Of a stretch of 64,000 nt of DNA, positions 1 to 16,033 are shown one piece after another (the stretch's first letter is position 1; each line of letters starts with the position of its first letter). The stretch lies in the NCBI RefSeq assembly GCF_029714325.1, contig NZ_CP121666.1:2914001-2978000 (forward strand). The letters run 5' to 3'. The DNA is from Bradyrhizobium sp. CB1717. Lineage in GTDB: Bacteria > Pseudomonadota > Alphaproteobacteria > Rhizobiales > Xanthobacteraceae. The position numbers were made by a program, and so were the translations under genes. A model generated the notes under the pieces. It was not told where the DNA came from. It worked only from the letters and a program-made list of their open reading frames with translations, and ran no database searches.

Positions 1-109
1 CGTCGAAGCCGGGAATGCCCGAGACGAACAGCAAGTCGCCGACGCGCGTCGCAAAGGACAGCGGCGGCGCCTTGACGTGCGGCGGGGCCGCGAAATGCTG
101 GATCGGCAT
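1..109 (-). CDS. RidA/YjgF-family protein, 3' part cut by the window edge
   Basis: Reading leftwards from an ATG at 109, the first 36 residues begin MPIQHFAAPPHVKAPP and run into a LLFVSG segment. That resembles the N-terminal strand region of RidA/YjgF/UK114 proteins, which hydrolyse reactive enamine/imine intermediates. The start is preferred over an out-of-frame ATG at 114 because GAGGTG lies five bases upstream of it. The gene continues beyond position 1, so the conserved catalytic arginine cannot be seen. Assignment rests on a short N-terminus and the subfamily is unknown. Confidence 0.6.
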   Translation of the reverse strand, partial: MPIQHFAAPPHVKAPPLSFATRVGDLLFVSGIPGFD

Positions 110-622
110 GGCATCACCTCGTCGGCGTGTCGGGAGCAGGAGCGTAGCGGGATGCGGGGGAGTGTTGCAATCGGGTTGCAGAGGGGCAAAGACAAAAAAT
201 GCGAAAACAACCCCATGCACAGTAGAGACCGGGCCGAAATCATTGGGCTTTTTCGATTTCGGGAAGAGCGAAATATTCGTTTGCGCCGTCGGGCAAAACA
301 GGGGCATAATGGCATGGTGGCGACGGTTGTTCGCGAGCGCGGTGGTTCGCCTTTCCCCGCATGCAGCCGCCGGCAGGAGAGGCCGGAATGCATCCATCCC
401 GTCATTGCGAGCGCAGCGAAGCAATCCAGATTGGCCCCGCGGAAGGATTCTGGATTGCTTCGCTGCGCTCGCAATGACCGAGAACGAGGGGCCTTCCGCG
501 AGTTCAGCCGCCGCCGTGCTTGCAGAGACTCCCTCCATCATGTTGCCGCCGCGATCGATCGGATAGATTTGGCCGCGTCTGATTCGTTTCCCTCCCAAAA
601 AAATAGCCCCCGGAGACACTCC
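110..622. other. Intergenic region without a supported gene
   Basis: About 510 bases between the divergent RidA-like gene and the secreted protein gene. It contains one palindromic repeat (401-478). An open frame on the plus strand runs through it into the next gene, but its translation has no recognisable protein character and crosses the repeat, so it is treated as non-coding. The stretch 190-310 looks like the non-coding sequence often dispersed in Bradyrhizobium genomes, but that is an impression from memory. Confidence 0.55.
401..478. repeat. Palindromic intergenic repeat, family A copy 1
   Basis: Inverted repeat whose outer arms read GTCATTGCGAGCGCAGCGAA and the reverse complement, with an inner GCAATCCAGA/TCTGGATTGC pair and a short variable centre. 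Four more copies occur in this window (9499, 17414, 36923 and 55826), always between genes. It resembles REP/RPE-type elements of rhizobia. Confidence 0.85.
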
Positions 623-1057
623 ATGAAGATCGCTAGCACCCTTCGCGCCGCGCTGGTCGCCATTGCCGCGCTCGCCGGCCTCTCGACCTCGGCGCTGGCC
701 GACGGCGGCACCGTGGTGCTGACGATCTACAAGGCGGGCTGGATCATCGGCGGCTCGGGCGGGAGCGGCGTGCTGAACTTCCGCGGCCGCTCCTATGGGC
801 TCTCGACCGGCGGGCTCGACTACGGCCTCGTGTTCGGGGGATCCAAGACCGTGCTGCGCGGCCGCGTCTCCAACATCAACCGTCCCTCCGACGTCGCCGG
901 CGTCTATGGCGCCGCCGGTGCGGGCCTCGCGGTCGGCCGCGGCGCCCGCGCCATCGTGCTCACCAACCAGAAGGGCGCGGTGCTGGAGCTGACCGGCACG
1001 CAGGTCGGCCTGATGGCGAATGCGGATCTCAGCGGGCTTGCGATCACGATGCGGTAG
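623..1057 (+). CDS. Conserved exported protein of unknown function
   Basis: A 144-residue protein with a clear signal peptide (residues 1-27, ending SALA before DGG). The mature part is glycine-rich, with repeated short beta-strand-like segments and no cysteines. The ATG at 623 is chosen because the open frame extends far upstream without protein character, while this start opens directly into the signal sequence. It follows CGGAGACACTCC. I do not recognise a named family with certainty; the pattern recalls small secreted beta-rich proteins of Rhizobiales. Function unknown; periplasmic location is inferred from the signal peptide. Confidence 0.75.
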   Translation: MKIASTLRAALVAIAALAGLSTSALADGGTVVLTIYKAGWIIGGSGGSGVLNFRGRSYGLSTGGLDYGLVFGGSKTVLRGRVSNINRPSDVAGVYGAAGAGLAVGRGARAIVLTNQKGAVLELTGTQVGLMANADLSGLAITMR

Positions 1058-1095
1058 GGCGCGGCGAAACCTGCCGGCGCGTAGCTCGAACCTTG

Positions 1096-1941
1096 CTACC
1101 GTAACGGCGGCCGCAATTGCACTGGCGGCTCCCGCTGCACTCTGGCCTGCGTCGGCGGCGTCGGCGTGCGCGCGGGGGCGGTCACGGGCCGTGGCAAGGG
1201 TGTCAGCGTCGCCGCCCGCTGATGCTGTTCGGCTGCGGTGGCAACGAGACGCGCCACCTGTTCCTGATTGGCCTTGACCTGCTCGGTGATAGTCGCCTGG
1301 TCGCGGGCCAGCTGGTCCTGGCTGGCTTTGAGCTCGTCGATCTTTTGCAGCACGCTGGCGAGATCGTGCGACATCGTCTCGATCAACTGTGTCAGCTCGG
1401 CGGGTATCGCGGCCGCGGTCGGCACCATCTCTTGCGGTGTCGTCTGAGCCGCAGGTGGGGCTTGCGAAAGGGTAGCGTCAGCCGCAGCCAACCGAACGAA
1501 AGGCGCTGCCGGCTGGATGGAGGGCTGGGTTTCTTCGTTCGGCAGCACGGCAGCCGAAACCGCTTGCGGCGCCCAGCGGGAAATCATCTGCTGCGTCGCG
1601 TCGCTGGCGAACTGCGAGGCAAAGGCAGCGCTGAAGATGCACGCCGCCAACAAGAGGCCGATCAAGCCGCGCAGCGCCGACCTGTGCCGGAAGGACCGGC
1701 GGTCGAGTTGGTGGCCCGCCTCGGGCCCTAATCTGGACATCTGCTGGTTTATACGTGCGAGTTGTTCATCGGCGAGCGCGATCTGTTCATAGGCATGCGC
1801 GAGCCTTTCATCGGCGCGTGCAACCAGCTCCTTGTCCGGCGCGGACAGTCCCGATCCCTGCGTGGAGCGTCCCGGATCGACGGCGGGTGGATCGGCTGGC
1901 TTGATGTCGGGAGTGGATTGCATTTCCAGCGTGGACTGCAT
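1096..1941 (-). CDS. Membrane-anchored coiled-coil protein, hypothetical
   Basis: 281 residues from an ATG at 1941 preceded by AGGAGG six bases upstream; the longer frame to 2157 lacks a ribosome site and protein-like composition. A charged helical N-terminus (residues 40-70, with repeats of the type ADEQLA) leads to one transmembrane helix (about residues 85-105). An Ala/Pro-rich linker follows, then a long coiled coil (about residues 175-235, ELTQLIETMSHDLASVLQK) and a basic, Pro-rich tail. This architecture is common among multi-copy hypothetical proteins of Bradyrhizobium. Function unknown; a scaffold role is speculation. Confidence 0.75.
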   Translation of the reverse strand: MQSTLEMQSTPDIKPADPPAVDPGRSTQGSGLSAPDKELVARADERLAHAYEQIALADEQLARINQQMSRLGPEAGHQLDRRSFRHRSALRGLIGLLLAACIFSAAFASQFASDATQQMISRWAPQAVSAAVLPNEETQPSIQPAAPFVRLAAADATLSQAPPAAQTTPQEMVPTAAAIPAELTQLIETMSHDLASVLQKIDELKASQDQLARDQATITEQVKANQEQVARLVATAAEQHQRAATLTPLPRPVTAPARTPTPPTQARVQREPPVQLRPPLR

Positions 1942-2217
1942 CTGCGCCTCCTGCCCGGGTTGACGCTGAATGAGGTGGTTCGTCCGACTTCCGCATTGCG
2001 CACTCCCCAGTGCAGCTTTGACCAAAGCAAGACTAAGGCATGGAAAGTCTGGGGCTGTTTTTGGGCGATAGCCTGTCAGTCGCAGACGAAGGCAGGATCT
2101 TGGCCGGTCACAACCGCGGGCGCGCCACACACGGCGGCGCAAGGCGTAACCCGCCACCTCGGCTTCCTCGGTTCAGACCAGATGGACAACCTCCTGAGAC
2201 ACCAAAGCTAACCCACC

Positions 2218-2913
2218 CTATTTTCCACCGACCGCCGCATGAATCCGCTCGCAATGCGCGACGAGGTTTGCATGCGCGTCGACGAAGGCCTTCAGCGGCG
2301 TCGGGATCGGAAAATAATAGATGTTGGCGACGAAGCCGTAGATGCCGGCATCACAGCTGGTTGGCGCCGCGCCATGGACGAAGCCCGTGGCCGGCACGAT
2401 CTCGGCCAGCACCTGCAGATCGGCGAGCCCCCGCGCATAGGCCTGCTCGGGCGTGTAGCGGCCGATGCCCTGGTAATGATAGCGCTGCGCGTTATACGCC
2501 TTCGCCTTCTCGAACCCTTCCGCACTCACTTGCGGATGCTGCGCGATGAAACCGTCGCGGAACGCCGGATAGAAGCGCTCGTCCTTCCAGCGCGAATACG
2601 ACATCACCCAGTAGAGATCGTCCAGCATGCGCGTGATCAGATGATTGGTTCGGCGCTGCTCCGCCGATAGCGCCGCATCGATGGTCAGGCGATATTTGGC
2701 GATGAGATGCGCGATGATGGTCTCGCTGTCGCCGATGGTCTCGCCGTCGTCGACGATGTAAGGCAGCTGCCCGCGCGGCGCGGCGGAGGCATCGAAGATA
2801 TGCTCGTGCACGAACGGCACGCCCGCGAGCTTCAGGAACGCGTAGACCTTGAGGCCATAGCCGTTGTTGTCGGCGACGCCGAAGAGTTTTGGATAGGAAT
2901 AGAGGGTCAGCAT
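2218..2913 (-). CDS. Glutathione S-transferase-like protein (Fax/Tom37-like)
   Basis: 231 residues. The N-terminus MLTLYSYPKLFGVADNNGY, followed by KVYAFLKLAGVPF and QLPYIVDDGETIGDSETI, matches a thioredoxin-fold GST N-domain with the cis-Pro and Glu-Ser glutathione-binding segment (near residues 50-66). The rest is helical, as in the GST C-domain. The ATG at 2913 follows GGAGGAG at good spacing; an upstream in-frame extension has no such signal. The type resembles the Fax/metaxin-like GST subgroup rather than classical transferases. Substrate unknown. A second GST gene follows upstream on the same strand, separated by a repeat. Confidence 0.8.
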   Translation of the reverse strand: MLTLYSYPKLFGVADNNGYGLKVYAFLKLAGVPFVHEHIFDASAAPRGQLPYIVDDGETIGDSETIIAHLIAKYRLTIDAALSAEQRRTNHLITRMLDDLYWVMSYSRWKDERFYPAFRDGFIAQHPQVSAEGFEKAKAYNAQRYHYQGIGRYTPEQAYARGLADLQVLAEIVPATGFVHGAAPTSCDAGIYGFVANIYYFPIPTPLKAFVDAHANLVAHCERIHAAVGGK

Positions 2914-2985
2914 TGGCGGGCTCCTCCGGGGTGGCGGGCGCCAGCATGCAGGGGTGTGATGGTGGACGCAATGGCCGTCTCGTTG

Positions 2986-3050
2986 CCCGGATGAGCGCAG
3001 CGACATGCGGAAACAGCGGCCCCGGATGTCGCTTCGCTCATCCGGGCTAC
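2986..3050. repeat. Palindromic repeat, family B copy 1
   Basis: Inverted repeat with arms CCCGGATGAGCGCAGCGACAT and a reverse-complement arm ending in CATCCGGG, lying between the two GST genes. Related copies are at 3791 and 42162. Confidence 0.8.
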
Positions 3051-3059
3051 GAAGCGACC

Positions 3060-3707
3060 CTACGAACGCGACGCCGCCTGAAACACCGCAAGCTGCGCAT
3101 CGAACGCGCGCCTGAACGCCGGCCGCGCCTCGCCGCGGGCGACATAGGCGGCGATGTCAGGGTATTCCTCCAGCAGGCCCGAGGTGTTCAGCCGGCGCAG
3201 CACCGTCACCATCATGAGATCGCCGGCGCTGAATGCGCCGTCGAGCCAATCGGCTTCGCCGAGGCGGCGGGACAATTCGCCGAGCCTGGTGCGGACGCGA
3301 TCCTGCAGCATGGGCAGCCGCTCCGCGTACCAGCTCCTGTCGCGCTCGAACAGCATGGCCATGCCGAGCTCGACGATCGGTGGCTCCAGCGTGTTCAGCG
3401 CGGCGAACATCCACGCGATCGCCCGGCTTCTGGCGTTGCCATCCGTCGGCAGCAGTCCGGCATGGCGCTCGGCGATATGGAGCACGATCGCGCCGGTTTC
3501 GAACAAAGCGAGACCGCCGTCCTCATAGGTCGGAATCTGCCCGAACGGATGCAGCGCCAGATGCGCCGGCTGCTTCATCGCCGCGAACGACACGAGGCGA
3601 ACGTCGTAGGGCTGGCCGGCCTCCTCCAGCGCCCAGCGCACGCGCATGTCACGCGCCTGCCCGCGGCCGCGGTCGGGCGAGTTTTCGAAGGCGGTGATGG
3701 TGGGCAT
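3060..3707 (-). CDS. Glutathione S-transferase family protein
   Basis: 215 residues with a thioredoxin-like N-domain: ITAFENSPDRGRGQARDMRVRWALEEAG at the start, HPFGQIPTYEDGG with the cis-Pro near residue 58, and LFETGAIV, the Glu-Thr/Ser glutathione site, near residue 70. A helical C-domain contains WLDGAFSAGDLMM, the usual N-capping motif of GSTs. The start has GGAG upstream. It probably acts in detoxification or conjugation, but the substrate cannot be deduced. It is only loosely similar to the neighbouring GST, so a recent tandem duplication is unlikely. Confidence 0.85.
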   Translation of the reverse strand: MPTITAFENSPDRGRGQARDMRVRWALEEAGQPYDVRLVSFAAMKQPAHLALHPFGQIPTYEDGGLALFETGAIVLHIAERHAGLLPTDGNARSRAIAWMFAALNTLEPPIVELGMAMLFERDRSWYAERLPMLQDRVRTRLGELSRRLGEADWLDGAFSAGDLMMVTVLRRLNTSGLLEEYPDIAAYVARGEARPAFRRAFDAQLAVFQAASRS

Positions 3708-3790
3708 GGGGGGCTCCGGGTTGTCGGCGTTGCGTCCAGAGGACGAGTGGCGGGGGCAGTTTCCGACAGGCTATCGCGTTTTGTGGGGCC

Positions 3791-3866
3791 TGTAGCCCGC
3801 ATGAGCGATAGCGATATGCGGGGCTGCTGCCGGTCCCGGATGTCGCTATCGCTCATCCGGGCTACA
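3791..3866. repeat. Palindromic repeat, family B copy 2
   Basis: Arms TGTAGCCCGCATGAGCGATA and a complementary arm ending GCTACA, between the GST and VOC genes. Same family as the elements at 2986 and 42162. Confidence 0.8.
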
Positions 3867-3967
3867 AGAAAATCCGGTCCTCACTGTCGGAACGCCGCTC
3901 CCCACCACGTCCTTGGAACACCGGCGCGCGGCCGTGCGCCCCGCCCGAGCCGAAAGGAGCCCCGTTC

Positions 3968-4405
3968 ATGACCTCGATCACGCCGTTTCTCTGGTTCGAC
4001 AACAACGTCCCCGAGGCCGTCGCGTTCTACAAATCGGTGTTTCCCAACGCCAGGGTCGAGGCCGTCAGCGACTTCATGGCGGTGTTCGAGCTCGAGGGCC
4101 AGCGCTTCCACGCGCTCAATGGCGGGCCGCAATACCGCTTCAACGAGGCGGTGTCGTTCTTCGTCAGCGTCGAGACGCAAGGCGAGGTCGATTATTTCTG
4201 GGAAGCGCTCACCGCCGACGGCGGTGAGGAATCGAGGTGCGGCTGGCTCAAGGACAAGTTCGGCCTGTCCTGGCAGGTGATCCCGACAGCGCTCGGCCGC
4301 TATCTCGGCGACCCCGACCGCACCAAAGCGAACCGCGTGATGCAGGCAATGCTGGGGATGCGGAAGCTCGTGATCGCGGAGCTGGACAAGGCGTATGCGG
4401 GGTGA
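3968..4405 (+). CDS. VOC-family (PhnB/3-demethylubiquinone methyltransferase-like) protein
   Basis: 145 residues, starting at an ATG with AAGGAG upstream. The sequence begins ITPFLWFDNNVPEAVAFYKSVFP, includes ALNGGPQYRFNEAVSFFV, and ends with WQVIPTALGRYL. These are hallmarks of the PhnB-like branch of the vicinal-oxygen-chelate superfamily, often annotated as 3-demethylubiquinone-9 3-methyltransferase-like. Members are small single-domain betaalphabetabetabeta proteins; enzymatic activity is usually unproven. Neighbours give no pathway hint. Confidence 0.85.
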   Translation: MTSITPFLWFDNNVPEAVAFYKSVFPNARVEAVSDFMAVFELEGQRFHALNGGPQYRFNEAVSFFVSVETQGEVDYFWEALTADGGEESRCGWLKDKFGLSWQVIPTALGRYLGDPDRTKANRVMQAMLGMRKLVIAELDKAYAG

Positions 4406-4420
4406 GGGGCTGACGGTGCC

Positions 4421-4512
4421 GTAGGGTGGGCAAAGGCGCGCTCTTCGCGCCGTGCCCACGACTCGCGAAGAAATCGTGGGCACGGCGCTGACGCGCCTTT
4501 GCCCACCCTACG
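4421..4512. repeat. Palindromic repeat with GTAGGGTGGGCAAAG arms
   Basis: Outer arms GTAGGGTGGGCAAAGGCGCG and the complementary CGCGCCTTTGCCCACCCTAC enclose a second inverted pair, CGTGCCCACGA/TCGTGGGCACG. It lies directly after the VOC gene stop. Together with the next repeat it fills the 313-base gap to 4718, in which no gene is seen. Confidence 0.85.
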
Positions 4513-4561
4513 AGGCTACGAAGTTTCGTGTTTGAGCAGGACCGCGAGTCCCACCCACGGT

Positions 4562-4687
4562 GTCGTCCTGGCGAAAGCCAGGACCCATACCGCGTGATGT
4601 TTCGGTTGCGGACGATCGCAGTACCGGACCGCGAGTCTTCGCCAAACTCCTCCCTGGGGTAATGGGTCCTGGCTTTCGCCAGGACGA
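4562..4687. repeat. Long inverted repeat with GTCGTCCTGGCGAAAGCC arms
   Basis: Outer arms GTCGTCCTGGCGAAAGCCAG and its complement near 4665-4687, about 75 bases apart. A short internal palindrome, TGGCGAAAGCCA, lies within the arms. Intergenic, downstream of the Mug-like gene. Confidence 0.8.
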
Positions 4688-4718
4688 TGACTGAGTTTGG
4701 CGCTGCCACTAACTCACC

Positions 4719-5231
4719 CTACGCAGCAATCCACTCCGCCAACTCTCGCCAAGGCTCAATCGTCCAACTCCCCGACGCCGCACCGGACGGCGAGGGCAGC
4801 ACGAAAATCTCCGGCCAGCTTCCATCCGATGCCTGCCGCCCCAGCGCAATCGCAGCTGACGGCCTGCCGTAAAACAAGCTCGCCGCCCTCTTGCTCGTGA
4901 ACGCAATCGTCCGCGGCCGGTACTTTTCCATCTTCGCCCTGAACCCCGCCACGTCGATCGTCTCCGCCGCGATCTGGTGATCCATCCCGGCGCCCGACTT
5001 GGAGAGATCGGTGAAGCCGATCCCGAGCTCGATCAGCTTTGCGAACTCGCCGGGCTGATAGCGCCGCGGCGTGATCCCGGCCTCATGGATCGCGCGCCAG
5101 AAGCGGTTGCCGGGATGGGCGTAGTAGTGCCCGAGCTCCGCCGAGCGCGTAGAGGCGGCGGTGCCGACGAAGACGAGGCGGAGATTGGGGCGGAGCTGGT
5201 CGGGGAGGCGGTGGAGCATAGTGCCCAACAT
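4719..5231 (-). CDS. mug: Mug/TDG-like mismatch-specific DNA glycosylase
   Basis: About 170 residues of the uracil-DNA glycosylase superfamily, family 2. Seen in order: LRLVFVGTAAS (motif A strand and loop), YYAHPGNRFWRAIHEAG (strongly Mug-like), IGFTDLSKSGAGMD, and FVLPSPSGAAS near the end (motif B, usually NPSGLS). The motif A loop reads GTAAS where Mug has GINPG, so the catalytic Asn position is not conserved. The frame can extend to a TTG at 5303, but that extension has no ribosome site; ATGs at 5231 and 5219 both precede the conserved core and the start between them is uncertain. Expected role is excision of mismatched uracil or thymine. Confidence 0.75.
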   Translation of the reverse strand: MLGTMLHRLPDQLRPNLRLVFVGTAASTRSAELGHYYAHPGNRFWRAIHEAGITPRRYQPGEFAKLIELGIGFTDLSKSGAGMDHQIAAETIDVAGFRAKMEKYRPRTIAFTSKRAASLFYGRPSAAIALGRQASDGSWPEIFVLPSPSGAASGSWTIEPWRELAEWIAA

Positions 5232-5466
5232 TGCGGTGTTGGCGCCTGCTGCAAGAGAACGGGCAGCCAACGTATCAGGAGATTGGATAGGGTGGAATTT
5301 CAAGAAGATCGGCCCATGTGAGTGACGCGCCTAAGCAAACGGAAGGATTGCGTCTTCCTGTCAGATCACTAGTCCCGAAGTTTACTTGCTAATTCGTTTT
5401 GATGCGTCGTAGGGTTGCAATGTCGGGGCGCATCGCAAGCGCGGTGTCGATGTTAGAAAGAGAGAT

Positions 5467-6519
5467 ATGCAAAGGAAAGCAACATTTCAGTCACTCTCCT
5501 GGCTGTGGGATTTGTACAAGCGGAAACTTCTCGATATGGATCCTCCATATCAGCGGAGGAGCATTTGGAATCAGCCTTACAAGGAGTTCTTTATCGATAC
5601 TGTCCTGAACGACTACCCATGCCCCGCCATATTCCTCTACGAGAATATAACCCCTGAAGGCGTGGCAAAATACAGTGTGGTGGACGGAAAGCAGCGTCTC
5701 CTAACGCTCTTCGAATTTGCCAATAACGAGTTCGCGGTCTCCTCGGAATCAACGGTCAGGAAGTATCGCGACAAATATTTCCAAGATCTCGACGATGACG
5801 CAAAGAGGGGGTTTTGGAGATATCAATTCGCCGTGGAGTTTATTCCGTCGGAGGACGAAACGCTTATCAATACGATCTTTGATCGCATCAACCGAAACGT
5901 TGCAAAACTTACACGGCAAGAGCTGCGGCACGCAAAATTCTCAGGCGTCTTTATAACGAAGGTCGAAGACCTTTCTGAGTGGATGTTTTCGACGTTGCCA
6001 AAGAACTTTCCATTCATTCAAGCTTCGTCCAGGAAGCAGATGAGAGACGATGAATTCGTCTCACAATTGCTGCTTTTACTGGAGGAGGGGCCGAAGTCGT
6101 ACTCTCAAGATGATTTAGATCAAGCGTTTAGCCTACGCGATCCTGAATGGGAGCGGGCCGAAGAGACCGAACGAGAGTTTCGCGAGGTTGTTCAGAAAAT
6201 CGACGAGATTGTTCGTGGAGATCAGACCGGTGAGCTAGTTCGGCGTCGCCTGAGAAATCAGGCCGACTTTTATTCGTTGGTGGGAGCGATCTCTAGTTTG
6301 ACGCGGTCGAGGGCATCATTGGACTCCGTTCAAGCTCGTGATTATCTCCAAACATTTATTGCGATAGTTGAGGATGAAGCTCTACGAAACGAATTTTCAC
6401 CAGCATTGGCGTACTTCGGAGCAAGTCGAGCTGCTTCAAATGATGCCGGCCCGCGAACGACAAGAATTACCATCATGAATGCGATTTTGACGGGCGTTCA
6501 TACTTTGCCGCGAGTCTAG
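5467..6519 (+). CDS. DUF262-domain protein (GmrSD N-domain-like)
   Basis: 350 residues. Near the N-terminus it has PPYQRR (26-31) and VVDGKQRLLTL (71-81). FDRINRN (138-144) and LTRQELRHAKFSG (148-160) follow. These are the ParB/sulfiredoxin-like motifs of DUF262, with DGKQR as the DGQQR-type nucleotide-handling motif. No HNH (DUF1524) domain follows; the remaining 190 residues are helical and unrecognised. DUF262 proteins are known from the modification-dependent GmrSD nuclease and several phage defence systems. Only one base separates its stop from the RelA/SpoT-like gene, so the two are probably cotranslated. Base composition is lower in G+C than the flanks (50% by hand count over 5881-5940), suggesting transfer. 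Confidence 0.85.
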   Translation: MQRKATFQSLSWLWDLYKRKLLDMDPPYQRRSIWNQPYKEFFIDTVLNDYPCPAIFLYENITPEGVAKYSVVDGKQRLLTLFEFANNEFAVSSESTVRKYRDKYFQDLDDDAKRGFWRYQFAVEFIPSEDETLINTIFDRINRNVAKLTRQELRHAKFSGVFITKVEDLSEWMFSTLPKNFPFIQASSRKQMRDDEFVSQLLLLLEEGPKSYSQDDLDQAFSLRDPEWERAEETEREFREVVQKIDEIVRGDQTGELVRRRLRNQADFYSLVGAISSLTRSRASLDSVQARDYLQTFIAIVEDEALRNEFSPALAYFGASRAASNDAGPRTTRITIMNAILTGVHTLPRV

Positions 6520-6520
6520 A

Positions 6521-7528
6521 GTGAATATTCCGCAACAGCTAATATCGATTTATTCGGAGCTTAAGCCTCGATTGGATGTCGTGGAACAGCGCGTCGCGGC
6601 TTCCTTATTGACCTACTCTCGCGAGAATATGTTGCCGTTTGTCGCCCGGATCAAAACGATAGAATCGGCGGCGGAAAAGATCGAGTCAGGGCGCTATCGC
6701 TCGTTCGCGGAGATTGATGACCTCGTCGCTGTTACCTTGGTCGTACCAACTCTTCGGCATGAAGCAGAGGCGATCTCGTACTGCCAAAGCATTTTTCATA
6801 TCGAAGAGGTGAAGCTTCGAACGTCTGTGAGGAAGCCACCCGAGTTGTTCAGATTTGATTCGACGCGCTTGTATGGATTTTTGCCAAGGCCATTGGGCCT
6901 CGACGTGGATGATCAAGAGACAATCTATGAGATAAAGTTCGAAATTCAAATTCGAACAGCGTTCGAGCATGCTTGGATTGTTGCTACTCATCCACTCACT
7001 TACAAGACGGATGTTGTTGACTGGAAAAGGATTCGACTTGCGGCGCAGATGAAGGCTGCGGCGGAGCAATTGGATTTATCTGTGCTTCAATTTGAGCATC
7101 TCGCAGATGGCATAGTCGAGGCTCCTTTTCCAGACATACAGGCGAAGCGAGAAATAGTGCAGTTGATTGAGCTATTGGGAAGGGATTCGGTTATACCGTC
7201 GGAGGCAAATCCAAAGGATATGTCGAGGTTTGCAGACAATTTAATAAATCTACTGCGCGCTTCGCAGAAAAAGACGGACATCCACGTTGCGCTTGCCGCG
7301 ATAGAAAAGCAGCTGCGACGCTTTACTTTAGAGACGTTCCCGAGAAGCGCATCGCTGTTGCAGGTCTGTATGGGAATTCTCCAAGAGGTTGGGCTGATCT
7401 CGGGGCCGCTACAGCGATATTCGTGCCACGTAACAGATCACCTGCTGGAAATTTTCCCTGGCGTGAGAGGGCTCACGCCAGTCTTCGAATATGCGCGCAC
7501 TAAGGCCCCTTCGTTGGAGGAGAAGTAA
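6521..7528 (+). CDS. RelA/SpoT-like nucleotidyltransferase-domain protein
   Basis: 335 residues from a GTG one base after the DUF262 stop. Residues 43-53 give R-x-K-x3-S-x3-K, the spacing of the ppGpp synthetase G-loop. D67 lies in EIDDLVAVTLVV, and EIQIRTAFEHAW (141-152) matches the C-terminal synthetase motif, followed by YK at 161-162. Two hallmarks are absent: the Arg five residues after the Asp is Thr72, and no GYxSxH motif is seen (nearest is RLYGF, 116-120). There is no HD hydrolase, TGS or ACT domain, so this is not a housekeeping Rel. The C-terminal half is helical. It may make an alarmone, modify tRNA like toxic small alarmone synthetases, or be a catalytically altered sensor; the sequence does not decide. 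It shares the low G+C of its partner. Confidence 0.8.
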   Translation: MNIPQQLISIYSELKPRLDVVEQRVAASLLTYSRENMLPFVARIKTIESAAEKIESGRYRSFAEIDDLVAVTLVVPTLRHEAEAISYCQSIFHIEEVKLRTSVRKPPELFRFDSTRLYGFLPRPLGLDVDDQETIYEIKFEIQIRTAFEHAWIVATHPLTYKTDVVDWKRIRLAAQMKAAAEQLDLSVLQFEHLADGIVEAPFPDIQAKREIVQLIELLGRDSVIPSEANPKDMSRFADNLINLLRASQKKTDIHVALAAIEKQLRRFTLETFPRSASLLQVCMGILQEVGLISGPLQRYSCHVTDHLLEIFPGVRGLTPVFEYARTKAPSLEEK

Positions 7529-7537
7529 TCAAGGCCC

Positions 7538-9584
<2,047 letters not shown>

Positions 9585-9604
9585 GACTGGAAAGAGCGCG
9601 TGCA

Positions 9605-10210
9605 TCACGCAGCTTCCTTCAGGCCGAGCCATTGCCGCACGCGGGCGTCCGGATCGGCGTTCTGGGTGACGTCGGACACCACGGCGATGGAATCCGCGCC
9701 CGCGGCAAAGATCTCCGCGGCGTGCTCGAACTTGATGCCGCCGATCGCGACCAGCGGGATGTTGCCGATGCGCTTCTTCCATTCCGTGATCTTTGGAATG
9801 CCCTGCGGCTCGAAGCGCATGGACTTCAGCGTGGTGAAGAAGATCGGGCCGAGCGCGATGTAATCGGGCTTGGCGGCCAGCGCGGTTTCAAGTTCGGCGT
9901 CGTCATGGGTGGAGATGCCGAGCAGGAGGCCCGCCTCGCGGATGGCTTTCAGGTCGGCATCCGCCAGATCCTCCTGGCCGAGATGAAGATATTTCGCGCC
10001 GGCGACGATCGCCGCGCGCCAGTAGTCGTTCACGACCAGCTTGACCTGCGTGTCCTTGGTGATCGCCAGCGCGTCGGTGACGATCTGCAACGCATCGGCG
10101 TCGTTCAGCTCCTTCGCGCGCAGCTGGATGGTGCCGACGCCGAGCTTGGTCAGGCGCTCGACCCAGTTGAGGCTGTCGACGACGGGATAGAAGCGATCAG
10201 GATACGGCAT
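9605..10210 (-). CDS. thiE: Thiamine phosphate synthase ThiE
   Basis: 201 residues from an ATG at 10210 that overlaps the end of thiG by 14 bases. An in-frame extension to 10264 lies inside thiG and is Pro-rich, so it is not used. The TIM-barrel motifs of ThiE are visible: [14 protein letters not shown] for the pyrophosphate side, [47 protein letters not shown] and VAIGGI. The enzyme joins hydroxymethylpyrimidine diphosphate and thiazole phosphate into thiamine phosphate. The DRFYPVVDS opening is typical of rhizobial forms. Translational coupling to thiG is likely. Confidence 0.92.
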
Positions 10211-10979
10211 GCCAGAACGGGGTCCCAACGACAGGGGTGGAGGGGGAGGCGAAGTCGCGGGCATTCATCAGCCCGGCTTCGTAAGCGGTGCGGCCGGCAT
10301 CACAGCCGAGACGGAAGGCGTTCGCCATCGCGACGGGATCGGCGGCCTTGGCGATCGCGGTGTTGAGCAGGACGGCGTCGTAGCCGAGCTCGAGCGCCTG
10401 CGCGGCGTGGGAGGGCGCGCCGATGCCGGCGTCGACCACCAGCGTGATGTCGGGCAGGCGCTCGCGCAGCAGTTTCAGCGCATCGCGGTTGGTGATGCCC
10501 TTGGCGCTGCCGATGGGCGCTGCCCACGGCATCACCACCTTGCAGCCGGCATCGACCAGGCGGTTGGCGACCGAGAGATCCTCGGTGCAATAGGGGAACA
10601 CCTCAAAGCCGTCCTTGATCAGGATGGTCGCGGCCTCGACGAGGCCGACGACGTCGGGCTGCAGCGTGTCGTTGTCGGCGATGACCTCTAACTTGATCCA
10701 GCTGGTGCCGAACAGCTCGCGCGCGAGTTTTGCGGTGGTCACGGCCTCGCGCACCGTGCGGCAACCGGCGGTGTTCGGCAGCACGGTGACGTCGAGCTCG
10801 CGGATCAGATTCCAGAACGCGTCGCCGGTCTTGCCGCCGGCGGATTCGCGCCGCAGCGACACCGTGACGATGTTCGAGCCGGAGGCGCGGATCGCGTCCT
10901 GCATGATCGCGGGGGATGGATAGAGCGCGCTGCCGATGAGCAGGCGCGAGGCGAAGGTTTTGCCGTAGAAATTGACCAT
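10197..10979 (-). CDS. thiG: Thiazole synthase ThiG
   Basis: 260 residues. The start [27 protein letters not shown] and WIKLEVI with Lys96 (Schiff-base lysine) are all ThiG hallmarks. So are the phosphate-binding end motifs [19 protein letters not shown] and [11 protein letters not shown]. It forms the thiazole ring from deoxyxylulose phosphate, dehydroglycine (from ThiO) and sulfur carried by ThiS thiocarboxylate. It is separated from thiS by about 190 bases occupied by a long inverted repeat, and overlaps thiE. Confidence 0.96.
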
Positions 10980-11004
10980 CAGTGCCTCCGCTTGCTGCGG
11001 TCTG

Positions 11005-11141
11005 CTCCCTCGCCCCGCTCTTGCGGGGAGAGGGTTGGGGTGAGGGGCTCTCTCCGCGCGTACCGATGCCGAGATACCTGTACCCCCTCACCCGGATCGC
11101 GAAGGGCGATCCGACCTCTCCCCGCAAGCGGGGAGAGGTTA
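11005..11141. repeat. Inverted repeat inside the thi operon (CCTCTCCCC type)
   Basis: A CCCCGCTCTTGCGGGGAGAGG hairpin at the left and ACCTCTCCCCGCAAGCGGGG at the right form nested inverted arms around a centre that also pairs CCCTCACCC with GGGTGAGGG. A similar element is at 18872. It lies between thiS and thiG and could form a stable RNA structure in the operon transcript. Confidence 0.8.
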
Positions 11142-11172
11142 AGAGGGCCGCGCGGCTGGAGTGACATCATCC

Positions 11173-11370
11173 TCACCCTCCCTGCCGCGGCGTGATGATC
11201 TCGATCTCGTCGCCGGCCTTCAGGCTCGTCTCGGCCCAGCGGCTTTTCGGCACGACGTCGTAGTTCAGCGCGATGGCGAAATGGGTGCCTTCGTAGTCGA
11301 GCTCTGCGAGCAGCGCGTCCACGCTCGCGGAGGCCACCTCGCGCTGTTCGCCGTTGACGATCACGCGCAT
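11173..11370 (-). CDS. thiS: Sulfur carrier protein ThiS
   Basis: 65 residues of the ubiquitin-like ThiS fold, starting MRVIVNGEQREV and ending in the required Gly-Gly (residues 64-65), which is adenylated and thiocarboxylated to donate sulfur to ThiG. Its start overlaps the end of thiO by ten bases, indicating coupled translation. No thiF is visible in the window, so the activating enzyme must be elsewhere. Confidence 0.95.
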   Translation of the reverse strand: MRVIVNGEQREVASASVDALLAELDYEGTHFAIALNYDVVPKSRWAETSLKAGDEIEIITPRQGG

Positions 11371-12380
11371 TGCATCACCTCATTGTCGATCTGCCCGCGC
11401 TGGACATAGGCGAGCGTCAGCTCGGCGAGCGCCGGCGCGATCAGGAAGCCGTGGCGGTAGAGGCCGTTGACGGCGATGGTCTCGCCGCGAATGCCGATAC
11501 GCGGCAGGTTGTCGGGGTAGGCGGGGCGAAGGCCGGAGCCGAATTCGACGATGCGGGCTTCGCCGAACGCCGGATGCACCGCATAGGCCGCGCCCAAGAG
11601 CTCCAGCGCCGAGCGCACGCTGACGCCGGTGTCCTCGGCCTCGATCGAGGTCGCGCCGAGCATGAACATGTTCTGCTCGCGCGGGATCACGTAGAGCGGC
11701 CAGCGCGGATGGATCAGCCGCACCGGCCGTGACAGCTGCACCTCGTCCGTCTCGATCAAAATCATCTCGCCCTTGACGCCGCGCAAGCCAGGCTGCTCCT
11801 CGCGTGCGGACAGGCCGCGGCAGTCGATCACGATGCCGTCGAGGCTTTGTAGATCTTGGGCGGTAACGTCGCTGTCGAACTTGATGGTGCCGCCGGCAGC
11901 TTTGATGCGCTCATGCAGCTTCGGCAGCACGCGCCGCGGCTCGACATGGCCCTCGGTCGGGAAGAACAGCGCATCGCGGAAGCGTCCCTCCAGCGACGGC
12001 TCGAGCTCGGCCAGGCCTGCGGCATCGAGCCGGCGATGGCCTTCGGTCATGCGGGCGAAGCGTTCGAAATCGTTGCGCTCGCGCGGATGGGCGACGACGA
12101 GGGAGCCGTTGAAGGGGGTGTCGGGCAGCTCGCGCCGCCAGATGTCGAGGGAGCGCAGGCCCAGCCTGGAGATGATGGGTTCGGCGACCTCCGCCTCGCA
12201 ATAGGGCGCCAGCATGCCGCCGGCCCAGTGGCTGGTGGAATCGGTCATCCCGGCGTCACTGCGCTCGTGTAGCGTCACGGCGTGGCCGGCCTGCGCGAAC
12301 AAAAGCGCCTGCCAGGCGCCGGCAATGCCTGCGCCGATGATGGATACCGGTGAATCCGGTCGCTTGGTCGTGTGCAACAT
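11361..12380 (-). CDS. thiO: Glycine oxidase ThiO (FAD-dependent)
   Basis: 339 residues of the D-amino-acid oxidase fold. The FAD-binding GAGIAG (residues 16-21) lies in a betaalphabeta start; TSHWAGGMLAPYCEAE is characteristic of ThiO, and PLYVIPREQNMFMLGATSIE plus GLYRHGFLIAPALAE form the C-terminal flavin region. It oxidises glycine to the imine used by ThiG for thiazole formation. It is the first gene of the thiamine operon, and its ATG follows the TPP riboswitch with almost no spacer. Confidence 0.92.
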   Translation of the reverse strand: MLHTTKRPDSPVSIIGAGIAGAWQALLFAQAGHAVTLHERSDAGMTDSTSHWAGGMLAPYCEAEVAEPIISRLGLRSLDIWRRELPDTPFNGSLVVAHPRERNDFERFARMTEGHRRLDAAGLAELEPSLEGRFRDALFFPTEGHVEPRRVLPKLHERIKAAGGTIKFDSDVTAQDLQSLDGIVIDCRGLSAREEQPGLRGVKGEMILIETDEVQLSRPVRLIHPRWPLYVIPREQNMFMLGATSIEAEDTGVSVRSALELLGAAYAVHPAFGEARIVEFGSGLRPAYPDNLPRIGIRGETIAVNGLYRHGFLIAPALAELTLAYVQRGQIDNEVMQCA

Positions 12381-12383
12381 CCC

Positions 12384-12496
12384 TGTCCCTTCGCCGGCAT
12401 GACCCGGATCAGGTTCAAAGGGTCACCGCGGTCCTGGGCGGTATTGCCCATTTAGCGGTATCTCAGCTCCTCCTCGGAGCACCCCTCGGAACGGGT
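12384..12496 (-). promoter_or_regulatory. TPP riboswitch (THI box) upstream of thiO
   Basis: On the minus strand the conserved THI-box pieces follow in order: GAGGGGTGCTCC, then GCTGAGATACCGC, then ACCCTTTGAACCTGATC, GGGTCATGCCGGCGAAGGGA. These match the aptamer helices P2-P5 and the pyrimidine-sensing CUGAGA loop. The last stretch, GAAGGGACAGGG, abuts the thiO ATG, so the ribosome-binding site lies in or next to the closing P1 strand. This suggests control of translation initiation, with thiamine diphosphate shutting off the operon. Confidence 0.95.
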
Positions 12497-12539
12497 CCAA
12501 TGTATGCCAGGGAGGCGGGGTGGTCAACGCGTGTTGCCG

Positions 12540-12675
12540 GGAACCCCACCGTTCCCCGGACGCGATGCAGCGCGCCGCCCTTTGCGGCGTGGTGCGTCGC
12601 AGGGCCGGGGCCCATTTGTTGCGTGGCTGGCATGGGTCCCACTGCGGCACTGCGGGCCGCAGTGCGCCCGGGACA
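12540..12675. repeat. Probable dispersed intergenic repeat with inverted segments
   Basis: Between the riboswitch and the lytic transglycosylase gene lies a block with several internal inverted pairs, for example GGGGCCC, GCCGCCCTTTGCGGC and CACTGCGGCACTGCGGGCCGCAGTG. It has no coding character. The motif set resembles a repeat seen widely between Bradyrhizobium genes, but only one copy is in this window. Confidence 0.45.
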
Positions 12676-12686
12676 CACGAGAGTTG

Positions 12687-13220
12687 CTATTTAAGCGCCT
12701 GCGCCCGCGCGTTGCGGACGCCTTGCGCGAGCTTCCTGTGCGGGGCGGTGCCGAACATCGGCTGCGGATTGCCGTTCGGCTCGAGCCAGGTCTCGCCGGC
12801 ATTGGCGACCTGCATGGCCTCCTGCCGCTGCCGCTTTGCAACGTAGTAATAGCCGCCCGCGAAATAACGCACAGCTCGCGCGTGGTCGCCATTGGCGGCG
12901 CGATAGGCGCCGGCGAGGTACTTCACCGCATAGGTGAGATTGGTGTTGGGATCGCGCAGGCCGGCGGCATCGCCGGTGTAGCCGACGCCGCGGGCGGTCG
13001 CGAGCTTGATCTGCATCAGCCCGATGGTGCCGCCACGGCCGACGAGGCCCGGCTGGTAGCGGCTTTCGCGCATGATGACGCGATGCACCAGCGCCTCCGG
13101 CACGCCGTTGGCGCGGGCATGCATCGCAACCATCGCGGCATATTCGGCTTCGCCCGCGAATGCGGCCTGCGTCATCATCAACCCTGCCGCAGCAAGCGCG
13201 GCAATATGCAAAGTTTTCAT
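12687..13220 (-). CDS. Lytic transglycosylase, SLT domain, exported
   Basis: 177 residues. A signal peptide (1-22, ending AAFAG) leads into an SLT fold: VHRVIMRESRYQPG with catalytic Glu52, GTIGLMQI (65-71), and NLTYAVKYLAGAYRAANGDHARAVRYFAGGYYY, the usual GLMQ, NI..G..YL and YN-type motifs. It cleaves the MurNAc-GlcNAc bond of peptidoglycan to anhydro products in the periplasm. GAGGAA precedes the start. The short C-terminal tail has no extra domain. It stands alone, so it could serve wall turnover or a local secretion apparatus. Confidence 0.9.
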   Translation of the reverse strand: MKTLHIAALAAAGLMMTQAAFAGEAEYAAMVAMHARANGVPEALVHRVIMRESRYQPGLVGRGGTIGLMQIKLATARGVGYTGDAAGLRDPNTNLTYAVKYLAGAYRAANGDHARAVRYFAGGYYYVAKRQRQEAMQVANAGETWLEPNGNPQPMFGTAPHRKLAQGVRNARAQALK

Positions 13221-13449
13221 CGAAATATTCCTCGGCAGAACGGACCTGCACCTCGCGCGTTAGGCCGTGGGAACACGGCGATGATGTGGCGAAATGCCAC
13301 CCGCGGCGATTTTCGCCGGCCCGTCGCTTTTACGACTTAAACCTAGGTTAAGTTCGGAGCTGGCGAAGCGTCTTACGCGACAGCGGGTCTGTCCATTCGC
13401 GCATTCGCCCAACAATCGCAATTCAAGAGCAGCACTCGGGAGGACGTCC

Positions 13450-13650
13450 ATGACCCCAGCAGACATCGACGACATTCCCATGCAGAACCCTTGTGCACAA
13501 TGTGGCACACCGATCCCGTTCCCGGACTGGATCGAGCCGGGCGAAGGCCGCGTTTCCTATCTCTGGAAGTGCCAGGCCTGCGGCTACCGCTTCGAGGCGG
13601 TTGCGATCTTCGATGAGCACGCGATCGAACATCCGCCGCTCGCTGCCTGA
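13450..13650 (+). CDS. Small zinc-ribbon protein, hypothetical
   Basis: 66 residues with two CxxC knuckles: C15-x2-C18 (NPCAQCGTPIP) and C41-x2-C44 (KCQACGYRFE), separated by 22 residues, as in a zinc ribbon. The ATG at 13450 has GGGAGGA upstream; an in-frame extension to 13294 lacks protein character. The fold probably binds one zinc and may act in nucleic-acid or protein binding, but no specific role is evident. It is not in an operon with its neighbours. Confidence 0.75.
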   Translation: MTPADIDDIPMQNPCAQCGTPIPFPDWIEPGEGRVSYLWKCQACGYRFEAVAIFDEHAIEHPPLAA

Positions 13651-13761
13651 GGCGTTGTCTTAAGGGCACATGATCTCCGCGCAAACGCGTTCCGCGTTTG
13701 TCGCGAGGGAAAACCGCTACACACTTTGCGCTAACGCGGCCCTTCGGGTCCGGATCATGCG

Positions 13762-15087
13762 CTACGCCGCGAGCCGCGGCGCCTGCCACACCGGCAATTG
13801 CATCCGCACGATCAGGCCGTGCGGCTCGCGGTCGTGCAGCGACAGCTCGCCGCCATGGGCGACCGCGATCGCGCGCGCGATCGACAGACCGAGGCCGAAG
13901 CCGGTGGAGTCGTCCATGGTGCGCGCGTCGTCGCCGCGCACGAACGGCTCCAGCATCTCCTGCTTGCGCGCATCCGAGATGCCGGGGCCGTCGTCCTCGA
14001 CGTCGATGACGAGCTTGGTGCCCGATATGTCGAGGCGGATCGTGACCTCGGCGCCGAAGCGCACTGCGTTCTCGACGAGATTGGTGACGCCGCGATGCAG
14101 ATCGTCGGGCCGCGCGGCGGCGGTCGCCGAGACGGGCCCCTCATAGTGCACGACGTGGCCCATGTCGCCGAACTGGTCGGCGACGAGCTGCAGCGTGCTG
14201 GCGATGTCGACCAGGGTCACGGCCTCGATCTTGCGGTCGTTGCGCAAGAGCGACAGCACGGATTCCAGCATCGAGCGCATCTGGTCGAGATCCATCAGCA
14301 TGCGCTTGCGGTTGCCCTCGTCCTCGATGAACTCGGCGCGCAGGCGCAGCCGCGTGATCGGCGTGCGCAGATCGTGGCTGATCGCGGCCAGCATCCGCGT
14401 GCGATCCGACATCAGCCGTGCGATCCGCTCGTGCATGCGGTTGAGCGCGCGCGCCACGGAGCGGATCTCTTCCGGCCCGCGCTCGGGCAGCGGGTCCGCG
14501 CCGCCGTCCAGGCTGAAATTCTCGGCGGCCCTGGCGAAGGAGGACAGCGGCGCGGCCAGCGCGCGCGCCGCCCACAGGCCGAGCACGGTGACGCAGATGA
14601 AGGCGGTCATCAGCGTCATCAGCCACGGGGCGCCCCAGAACCACGGCCGCGGGCCGCCCTCGACACGGCCGGCGATCACGGTGCCGTCGGGCAATTCGAC
14701 GCCGACGCGGTGCGCAGGGCCATCGGTGGCGAGCCGCACCACCTTGTAGCCGCGCCCGAGATGTCGGCGCATGCCGCGCAGATGCTGGTTGTCGCTCTCC
14801 TCGACGACGTCAGCCGTGCCCGGCGCGAACATCTCGATGCCGAGCTTGGGAAAGGCGCGCGCGAGATCGGCAATGAGGCGCGGCCGCTCGGCGGCGTCAG
14901 CCGAGCCGAGCAGCAGCGCGGCATCGGTCAGCTGATGGGCGCCGTCCGGCGGCGCGTCCGGACGGTCCGGCCGGCTGATCAGGAAGGCGGTGGTCACGAC
15001 GAGATGAAGCGCGACGGTCGAGGCCAGCACCAGCGCGGCGATCTGCCCGCCGATACCCCTGAGATGAAAGAACCCGAACGGCTTCAT
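13762..15087 (-). CDS. Two-component sensor histidine kinase (HAMP, EnvZ-like)
   Basis: 441 residues. TM1 at about 13-36, a periplasmic sensor of some 115 residues, TM2 at about 153-172 and a HAMP linker to about 225. The H box is ISHDLRTPITRLRLR with phospho-acceptor His238; the N box has Asn340 (NLVENAVRFG), G1 is DDGPGI (365-370), and G2 is GFGLGLS (396-402). These make it a complete, probably active class I kinase. It lies 13 bases downstream of its response regulator gene on the same strand, so the two form a cognate pair. The periplasmic domain is not recognised, so the signal is unknown. Confidence 0.92.
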   Translation of the reverse strand: MKPFGFFHLRGIGGQIAALVLASTVALHLVVTTAFLISRPDRPDAPPDGAHQLTDAALLLGSADAAERPRLIADLARAFPKLGIEMFAPGTADVVEESDNQHLRGMRRHLGRGYKVVRLATDGPAHRVGVELPDGTVIAGRVEGGPRPWFWGAPWLMTLMTAFICVTVLGLWAARALAAPLSSFARAAENFSLDGGADPLPERGPEEIRSVARALNRMHERIARLMSDRTRMLAAISHDLRTPITRLRLRAEFIEDEGNRKRMLMDLDQMRSMLESVLSLLRNDRKIEAVTLVDIASTLQLVADQFGDMGHVVHYEGPVSATAAARPDDLHRGVTNLVENAVRFGAEVTIRLDISGTKLVIDVEDDGPGISDARKQEMLEPFVRGDDARTMDDSTGFGLGLSIARAIAVAHGGELSLHDREPHGLIVRMQLPVWQAPRLAA

Positions 15088-15100
15088 CGTCGGCGTTCCC

Positions 15101-15856
15101 TCAGCTGCTCAGGGATGACGCGACCGCTTCAGTGCTTGCTACTTCAGTTCTGGGCGTGAACAGATAGCCGCCGGAGCGCACCGTCTTGATGATGGTGGGA
15201 TCGGCCGGATTGGGCTCGATCTTGCGGCGGATGCGGCTGACCAGCACGTCGATGGAGCGCTCGAACGAGCCGGTGTTGCGCCCTTGAGTGAGGTCGAGCA
15301 GGCTGTCGCGCGACAGAACGCGGCCGGGCCGCTCGCAGAAGGTGCGGAGCAGGTCGAACTCGGCGCTGGTCACCGCGACGCGCGCGCCTTCCGGATTGCG
15401 CAGCTCGCGCAGGCGCAGATCAATGCGCCAGCCCTCGAAGGCGAGCGTGCTTGCGCCTTCGATCGAGCTTGCCGCCTGCGCCGCGGCCTGGCGGCGCAGC
15501 ACCGCGTTGATGCGGGCGAGCAGCTCGCGCGGGTTGAAGGGTTTTGGCAGATAGTCGTCCGCGCCCATCTCGAGGCCGACGATGCGGTCGACGTCCTCGC
15601 CGCGCGCGGTCAGCATGATGATCGGCGTCTGCGCCTCGGAGCGCACCTTGCGGCAGAGGCTGAGCCCGTCCTCGCCCGGCAGCATGACGTCGAGGATGAT
15701 CAGGTCGATGCGGTGATCGGCCATGGCGCGCGACATCTCGCGGCCGTCGCTCACGGCGGTGACGTTGCAGGCGTTGTTGCGCAGGTACTTCGCAATCAAC
15801 GTCCGGGTTTCGCGGTCGTCCTCGACGACCAGGATGTTGGGATTGGGAATGGCCAT
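15101..15856 (-). CDS. OmpR-family response regulator
   Basis: 251 residues from an ATG at 15856 that opens directly into the receiver domain (ILVVEDD). Phospho-acceptor Asp56 lies in LIILDVMLPG, with Thr83 and Lys105 (LPKPFNP) as the switch residues. The C-terminal winged helix carries LTSAEFDLL-type VTSAEFDLLRTF, RNTGSFERSIDVLVSRIRRK and TVRSGGYLF. It is the first gene of the pair with the HAMP kinase. A longer frame to 15988 has no added domain. Targets are unknown; it may also read the divergent gene at 16034. Confidence 0.92.
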   Translation of the reverse strand: MAIPNPNILVVEDDRETRTLIAKYLRNNACNVTAVSDGREMSRAMADHRIDLIILDVMLPGEDGLSLCRKVRSEAQTPIIMLTARGEDVDRIVGLEMGADDYLPKPFNPRELLARINAVLRRQAAAQAASSIEGASTLAFEGWRIDLRLRELRNPEGARVAVTSAEFDLLRTFCERPGRVLSRDSLLDLTQGRNTGSFERSIDVLVSRIRRKIEPNPADPTIIKTVRSGGYLFTPRTEVASTEAVASSLSS

Positions 15857-16033
15857 GCGCTTTGTTTGTCCAAGATTCGGGCCAAATGGCGAAGATTTTT
15901 GTTTCAGATTGTTTCCGATAGCCTGTCCACAACATGGGGACATGCCGGGGCAGGGAAGCGGCAAGATCTCGTTAAGGCCGTTAACCATACCGTGGCGTGG
16001 TCACACAAGAAACCCCGCAAAACCCACGGAGCC

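Follow-up and report, generated by a model that had tools for sequence, protein, structure and literature searches.

In a 64,000-nucleotide stretch of DNA from Bradyrhizobium sp. CB1717 (hereafter, the window), two adjoining genes, encoding a DUF262 protein and a protein of the RelA/SpoT fold (RSH), form a unit that is conserved across bacteria and has moved between lineages. To judge from sequence, this unit is probably a horizontally transferred, two-gene abortive-infection cassette of a toxin-antitoxin-like kind, with DUF262 as the switch and RSH as the effector. The cassette joins two widespread defence parts, namely DUF262 switches and RelA-fold enzymes, across about ten phyla, and the changed acceptor site found in a natural RelA-fold lineage makes its chemistry and control mechanism directly testable. 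The features on which this reading is based are collected in Table 1.

Table 1. Positions in the window of the DUF262-RSH cassette, its surroundings and the protein regions discussed in the text.
Feature	Position	Strand	Details
DUF262 (GmrSD N-domain) gene	5467..6519	+	ATG start, 350 aa
RelA/SpoT-fold gene (RSH)	6521..7528	+	GTG start, 335 aa
Inserted low-G+C segment, mug-like gene to thiC	5226..7530 (approximate ends)	.	homology breaks and G+C
mug-like gene (UDG superfamily)	4719-5303	-	left flank
ThiC gene	7538-9436	-	right flank
D-G-K-Q-R motif of DUF262, residues 73-77	5683..5697	+	alignment of 42 sequences
SYNTH (pyrophosphokinase) domain of RSH, residues 1-197	6521..7111	+	
RSH D67..T72, catalytic Asp kept, GxR changed to AxT	6719..6736	+	alignment
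RSH rebuilt G-loop, residues 110-116, F-R-F-D-S-T-R	6848..6868	+	replaces x-G-Y-x-S-x-H
RSH helical C-terminal region, residues 198-335	7112..7525	+	barely covered by structural matches

The original prediction had described two plus-strand genes one base apart, of a composition unlike that of their neighbours and located between mug and thiC, and each of these points was borne out. Both open reading frames were recovered, with one base between the stop codon of DUF262 and the start codon of RSH; G+C content is 0.46-0.51 in 500-base windows across the pair, and 0.57-0.59 in the two windows at its boundaries, as compared with 0.61-0.73 in those windows of positions 1-16000 that are clear of it; and Pfam identified the flanking genes as a UDG-superfamily (mug-like) gene and ThiC. 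Same-genus relatives without the pair are homologous up to 5207-5225 on the left side and again from 7527-7551 on the right, and because homology breaks at these two points the insert is estimated at about 2.3 kb, including some 240 bases ahead of the DUF262 gene. No repeats marking either end of the insert were found. Near the mug-like gene lies an inverted repeat (4562-4588 and 4662-4687), of which L060 and L080 contain exact or near-exact short copies and L077 a single arm; this suggests a dispersed REP-like element.

The insertion site was compared within the genus. Of 60 same-genus genomes, 58 gave a thiC match. Among the best 30 of these loci, which include the window, 18 of the 29 from other genomes have a mug-like gene no more than 1.5 kb from the thiC end, and in 11 none was found over this distance. 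The 18 thiC-mug spacers measure 2 to 1414 bases, with G+C contents of 0.47-0.60, and only two pairs among them resemble each other. The main open reading frame of ten spacers gave matches to DUF4062 (one), HNH_2 (one), CBS with weak HEPN_Swt1 (two) and, below threshold, DUF6188 (two), or no match (four). Part of this cargo looks defence-like, to go by such domains, and since the spacers carry differing small genes of low G+C, the thiC-mug spacer (L060-L088) is an insertion hotspot in the genus. In G040 a solo RSH occupies the thiC site, in an orientation convergent to thiC that is also seen in the window, and in L002 the pair itself is also beside the thiC end, with a different gene on its far side.

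A scan of genome contigs with the RSH alignment yielded 67 pattern matches and 47 loci. A DUF262 profile match was found directly upstream, on the same strand, in 45 of them, the exceptions being L041, where RSH starts at the contig end, and L037, from which DUF262 and the first 85 RSH positions are missing. Because it recurs in this way, the DUF262-RSH order cannot be attributed to chance. The gap between both genes goes from -7 to 31 nt, with a median of 5, in the 43 loci with a measurable junction. According to record titles, and in some cases to what we take genus names to imply, these loci belong to about ten phyla, namely, Pseudomonadota, Cyanobacteriota (to which many of the loci belong), Bacteroidota, Bacillota, Actinomycetota, Nitrospirota, Verrucomicrobiota, Planctomycetota, Thermodesulfobacteriota and Bipolaricaulota. 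In an all-against-all comparison of neighbouring open reading frames, only DUF262 and RSH recur across non-syntenic loci, other shared neighbours being confined to small syntenic or related groups.

The two genes were also compared across loci. First, DUF262 and RSH distances are correlated (Mantel r 0.90, n 37, i.e. 36 loci plus the window; none of 2000 permutations as high), a value that ignores species relatedness; the tree, however, mixes phyla. Second, in this tree Nitrospira groups with a verrucomicrobial sequence (100/99), and the Bacteroidota sequence of L031 groups with two from Pseudomonadota (96/77), apart from three other Bacteroidota (94/82). Third, eight pairings of nine cyanobacterial loci gave dN/dS values of 0.11-0.43 for the two genes (one pairing saturated, with dS about 2), and both genes of these cyanobacterial pairs are under purifying selection. 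The original prediction had named, as outcomes that would speak against it, homologues that are not co-localised in other genomes, or a core locus that is stable in all related strains; the genomes gave neither overall, with 45 of 47 loci paired and at different sites.

As for the core locus, the distribution is patchy in the genus of the window, and one cyanobacterial group of six loci, which hold the pair in a shared syntenic place, resembles the stable situation. The full-length window RSH was detected in one of 146 sampled same-genus genomes, its own, with remote RSH in seven others (E 1.3e-4 to 7e-9); outside this sample the genus holds at least L002 and the truncated P0003. In the family, strong RSH matches were found in 3 of 248 genomes, own included, with DUF262 adjoining in all three, and in the phylum 13 of 398 genomes match at E 1e-10 or better, the only strong one being its own (443 bits; next 66). 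Among the family loci with strong matches, the pair has a G+C content of 0.38-0.41 in L099, against mostly 0.62-0.74 around it, and of 0.47-0.48 against 0.64-0.70 in L100.

To describe the company of the pair, 30 neighbouring proteins of 17 loci, picked for size and nearness, were surveyed, and L039 was added by homology. In 9 of these 18 loci, by raw count, the pair adjoins genes of restriction-modification (RM) systems, of mobile elements or of other defence-like kinds. The pair sits between HsdS- and HsdM-type genes of a type I RM system in L025, with a homologous layout in L039, and has MmeI/Eco57I-type genes on both sides in L032; the remaining six have integrases (L034 and L038), a transposase of the Mu type (L003), the reverse transcriptase of a group II intron (L043), an AAA_15 ATPase together with a second DUF262 (L018), and a HATPase protein that matches SIR2 below threshold (L031). 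The other nine comprise ordinary genes (L002, L005, L009, L022, L023 and L024), no identified neighbour (L006 and L030) and a sub-threshold HEPN match (L035). Five plasmid records match, all of them conjugative and from Rhizobium, none over more than 61% of the query. Of two plasmids opened, L057 has DUF262-RSH with an N6-methylase, and in L058 a BsuBI-type endonuclease is followed by DUF262, after which a short unnamed gene and then an IS5 transposase precede the remainder of RSH (sub-threshold Pfam). A search of 50,697 phage records with the window RSH found nothing, and no RSH match was confirmed in a scan of viral contigs; both results count against the reading proposed here.

The first protein of the cassette matches Pfam GmrSD_N/DUF262 above the curated cut-off (E 5e-20) and is predicted to consist of a ParB/Srx-like NTP-binding domain (about residues 1-145) followed by a helical C-terminal domain. 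That it lacks HNH, as originally proposed, agrees with Pfam, which gave no HNH/DUF1524 match at E up to 1. Among 42 DUF262 sequences, D73, G74, Q76 and R77 are invariant and K75 is present in at least 90%, and this motif is the counterpart of the DGQQR motif of the nucleotide pocket in GmrS and SspE, whose role, together with the hydrolysis of NTPs by the DUF262 relatives that have been studied, is described in PMC10952713. In fold, DUF262 comes closest to BrxU and SspE, with a high rmsd, and it is better conserved than RSH (mean identity, 0.53 versus 0.43). Remote DUF262 relatives were also seen beside other genes, i.e. a SIR2-like gene (sub-threshold Pfam), or a PLD-type gene with a protein kinase gene (L102:466-2544 and L103:389-3475).

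The second protein matches Pfam RelA_SpoT (PF04607) above the curated cut-off (E 4e-10), and no other Pfam family. Its predicted model (pLDDT 92.4, pTM 0.80) contains the SYNTH pyrophosphokinase fold; RelQ and RelP are the nearest solved folds in Foldseek, with RelQ 5dec_B as the best match (E 2.9e-8), and the N-terminus is common to relatives. The ATP-donor residues of FaRel2 are R64, K66, S70, K74, D90, E145 and Q147, as given in PMC11782079, and their counterparts are near-invariant among the aligned RSH letters, namely R43 (133/134), K45 (134/134), S49, K53 and D67 (135/135 each), and E141 and Q143 (139/139 each). The acceptor site differs: GxR has become AxT, and G-Y-x-S-x-H has become R-F-D-x-T-R. 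At the position of the FaRel2 G-loop Tyr (Y128), 133 of 136 RSH have Phe and three have Tyr, and at that of the GxR Arg (R95), Thr is found in 118 of 134 listed letters, with no Arg listed. Twelve other RSH, which lie across a 100/100 branch from the DUF262-paired lineage, all keep both residues. By its alignment, RSH of the cassette forms a naturally occurring RelA-fold lineage in which the ATP-donor residues are kept and the acceptor signature is changed. Since the G-loop Y-to-F mutation compromises FaRel2 (PMC11782079), RSH could have little or no activity if nothing else in its site makes up for this change.

The pattern of gene loss bears on which protein may be toxic. Both genes are complete in 36 of the 47 loci. 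A full DUF262 accompanies a broken RSH in five (L019, L042, L043, L044 and L046), three have a deletion that spans the junction or removes DUF262 with the beginning of RSH (L026, L037 and L047), three are cut by contig ends (L040, L041 and L048), and none of the 47 has an intact RSH without DUF262. In P0003, from Bradyrhizobium yuanmingense, residues like the first 13 of DUF262 are fused to an RSH that lacks its N-terminal part. The asymmetry of five to zero gives a one-sided sign test of 0.03 if the cases are independent; all five are cyanobacterial, four are MAGs and two have the same species name, so that sequencing error or shared descent may explain some of the broken RSH. One-sided loss in such small numbers is thus weak evidence; it fits an RSH that is harmful alone and agrees with RSH as the toxic part, as does the IS5 transposase gene between DUF262 and the RSH remainder of L058.

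We propose that DUF262 would be an NTP-binding switch of the ParB/Srx type, which keeps RSH silent or licenses it, and which would sense infection, probably via DNA or nucleotide state. RSH would be the effector, a pyrophosphokinase using ATP as donor through the seven retained residues, and, its acceptor site having been rebuilt, would modify something else than the guanosine nucleotide that usually serves as acceptor; growth would then stop before the phage matures. NTP use, sensing, toxicity, the acceptor, the direction of regulation, the chemistry of RSH and the anti-phage role are what we infer from these data. The original prediction, with DUF262 as sensor or partner and RSH as effector, is supported, and the loss asymmetry agrees with a toxic RSH. 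It is tempting to speculate, although more tentatively, that this may be a new immune system of two components, with a ParB/Srx NTPase controlling a RelA-fold pyrophosphokinase that acts on a target unused by known alarmone synthetases and toxSAS.

The roles could be reversed, as in CBASS-like signalling, RSH making a nucleotide signal upon infection and DUF262 being both receptor and effector, as a ParB/Srx NTPase or nickase. RSH does have the fold of an enzyme that modifies nucleotides, and its acceptor site is changed, the studied DUF262 relatives hydrolyse NTPs (PMC10952713), DUF262 is the more conserved partner, and its weaker relatives adjoin other genes (SIR2-like below threshold, PLD-type and kinase). 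However, Pfam detected no nuclease or membrane domain in DUF262, the loss is one-sided in the opposite sense, in small numbers, and RSH of other lineages occur with no DUF262 match within about 1.5 kb on each side, which makes this arrangement unlikely. Less probable still is a stress-regulation module devoid of a defence role, i.e. an alarmone synthetase with an NTP-sensing regulator: the RelQ/RelP-like fold, the six syntenic cyanobacterial loci, where the pair looks stable, and purifying selection are consistent with it, but not its rarity and patchiness (1/146, 3/248 and, by strong score, 1/398 genomes of genus, family and phylum), the RM and mobile-element company at part of the loci, or the loss of the acceptor motifs of other RSH. 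That RSH is a catalytically dead, nucleotide-binding scaffold serving DUF262 as sensor subunit, as the lost G-loop Tyr and GxR Arg might indicate, is highly improbable, given that D67, E141 and the basic donor residues are near-invariant in up to 139 sequences, unexpected for a dead enzyme.

The cassette, read as a DUF262 switch with an RSH effector, was compared with known systems. It shares with toxSAS and CapRel the predicted SYNTH fold and the ATP-donor residues of RSH, but lacks the G-loop Tyr and the GxR Arg, has its own helical C-terminal region, and its partner is DUF262 instead of the antitoxins of the pZFD/ATfaRel2 type or Panacea that are named in the sources consulted. No known antitoxin family was found adjoining or fused to RSH by Pfam, the neighbour being DUF262, and a known toxSAS or CapRel is ruled out by partner and acceptor motifs. 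With GmrSD, BrxU and SspE, which combine DUF262 and DUF1524, it has in common the DUF262 N-domain and its motif; here no DUF1524/HNH was matched, which rules out a GmrSD type IV restriction system, and the candidate effector is the separate RSH protein. RelQ and RelP, although nearest in fold, are shorter (about 180-200 residues modelled) than the 335-aa RSH, and their aligned relatives carry the canonical G-x-R and G-Y-R-S-x-H motifs that RSH lacks; to our knowledge, a DUF262 partner is no part of what is known of them.

NsnA, NsnB and NsnC we take to be the gene names of Menshen. The likeness to this system is an NsnA-like DUF262 protein, NsnA being the best-scoring PADLOC model (E 2e-39), matched by 42 of 42 relatives. 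In Menshen, DUF262 is combined with a predicted OLD nuclease (PMC10952713), whereas in the window there is no adjacent AAA/OLD ATPase, and RSH takes the place of the partner; with mug-like, RSH and ThiC as the adjacent genes, Menshen is ruled out. Separately, a second DUF262, an AAA_15/DUF3696 ATPase and a third gene shortly follow the pair in L018:7396-10650 and L019:7463-11175, starting in L018 about 400 bases past the cassette; this set, scanned in L018 and homologous in L019, looks Menshen-like. No description of a DUF262-RSH pair was found in the literature searched, whose scope leaves aside most subscription papers and preprints, and the accessible parts of PMC10952713, PMC11782079, PMC12704722, PMC9712102, PMC3710099 and PMC12839542 make no mention of it.

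The PADLOC candidate-defence model PDC-S33 is matched by 38 of 43 RSH of the cassette, weakly by the window RSH (E 5e-5), and more strongly by all five RSH scanned from outside the cassette lineage (E 8e-14 to 7e-21); GxR and G-Y are retained in the 12 other RSH used for comparison, unlike in those paired with DUF262. Further RSH arrangements were encountered along the way. First, in two same-genus genomes (L095:2906-5902 and L096:2889-5797), an OLD-like AAA_15 ATPase of 572-596 aa accompanies another RSH of 357-366 aa, at a G+C content of 0.48-0.51, and the ATPase of L096 matches PADLOC NsnB (E 9e-30) and AriA; by its gene content, this is another uncharacterised RSH module. Second, two tandem RSH-like genes of 387-402 aa each, one of them diverged, occur in L109:656-3034, L110:337-2697 and L115:859-3243. 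Third, the solo RSH genes of L105, L106, L108, L112 and L116, with G+C contents of 0.32-0.41 in loci of 0.43-0.53, apparently form a scattered, horizontally moved group, of which L105 and L106, the ones scanned, match PDC-S33.
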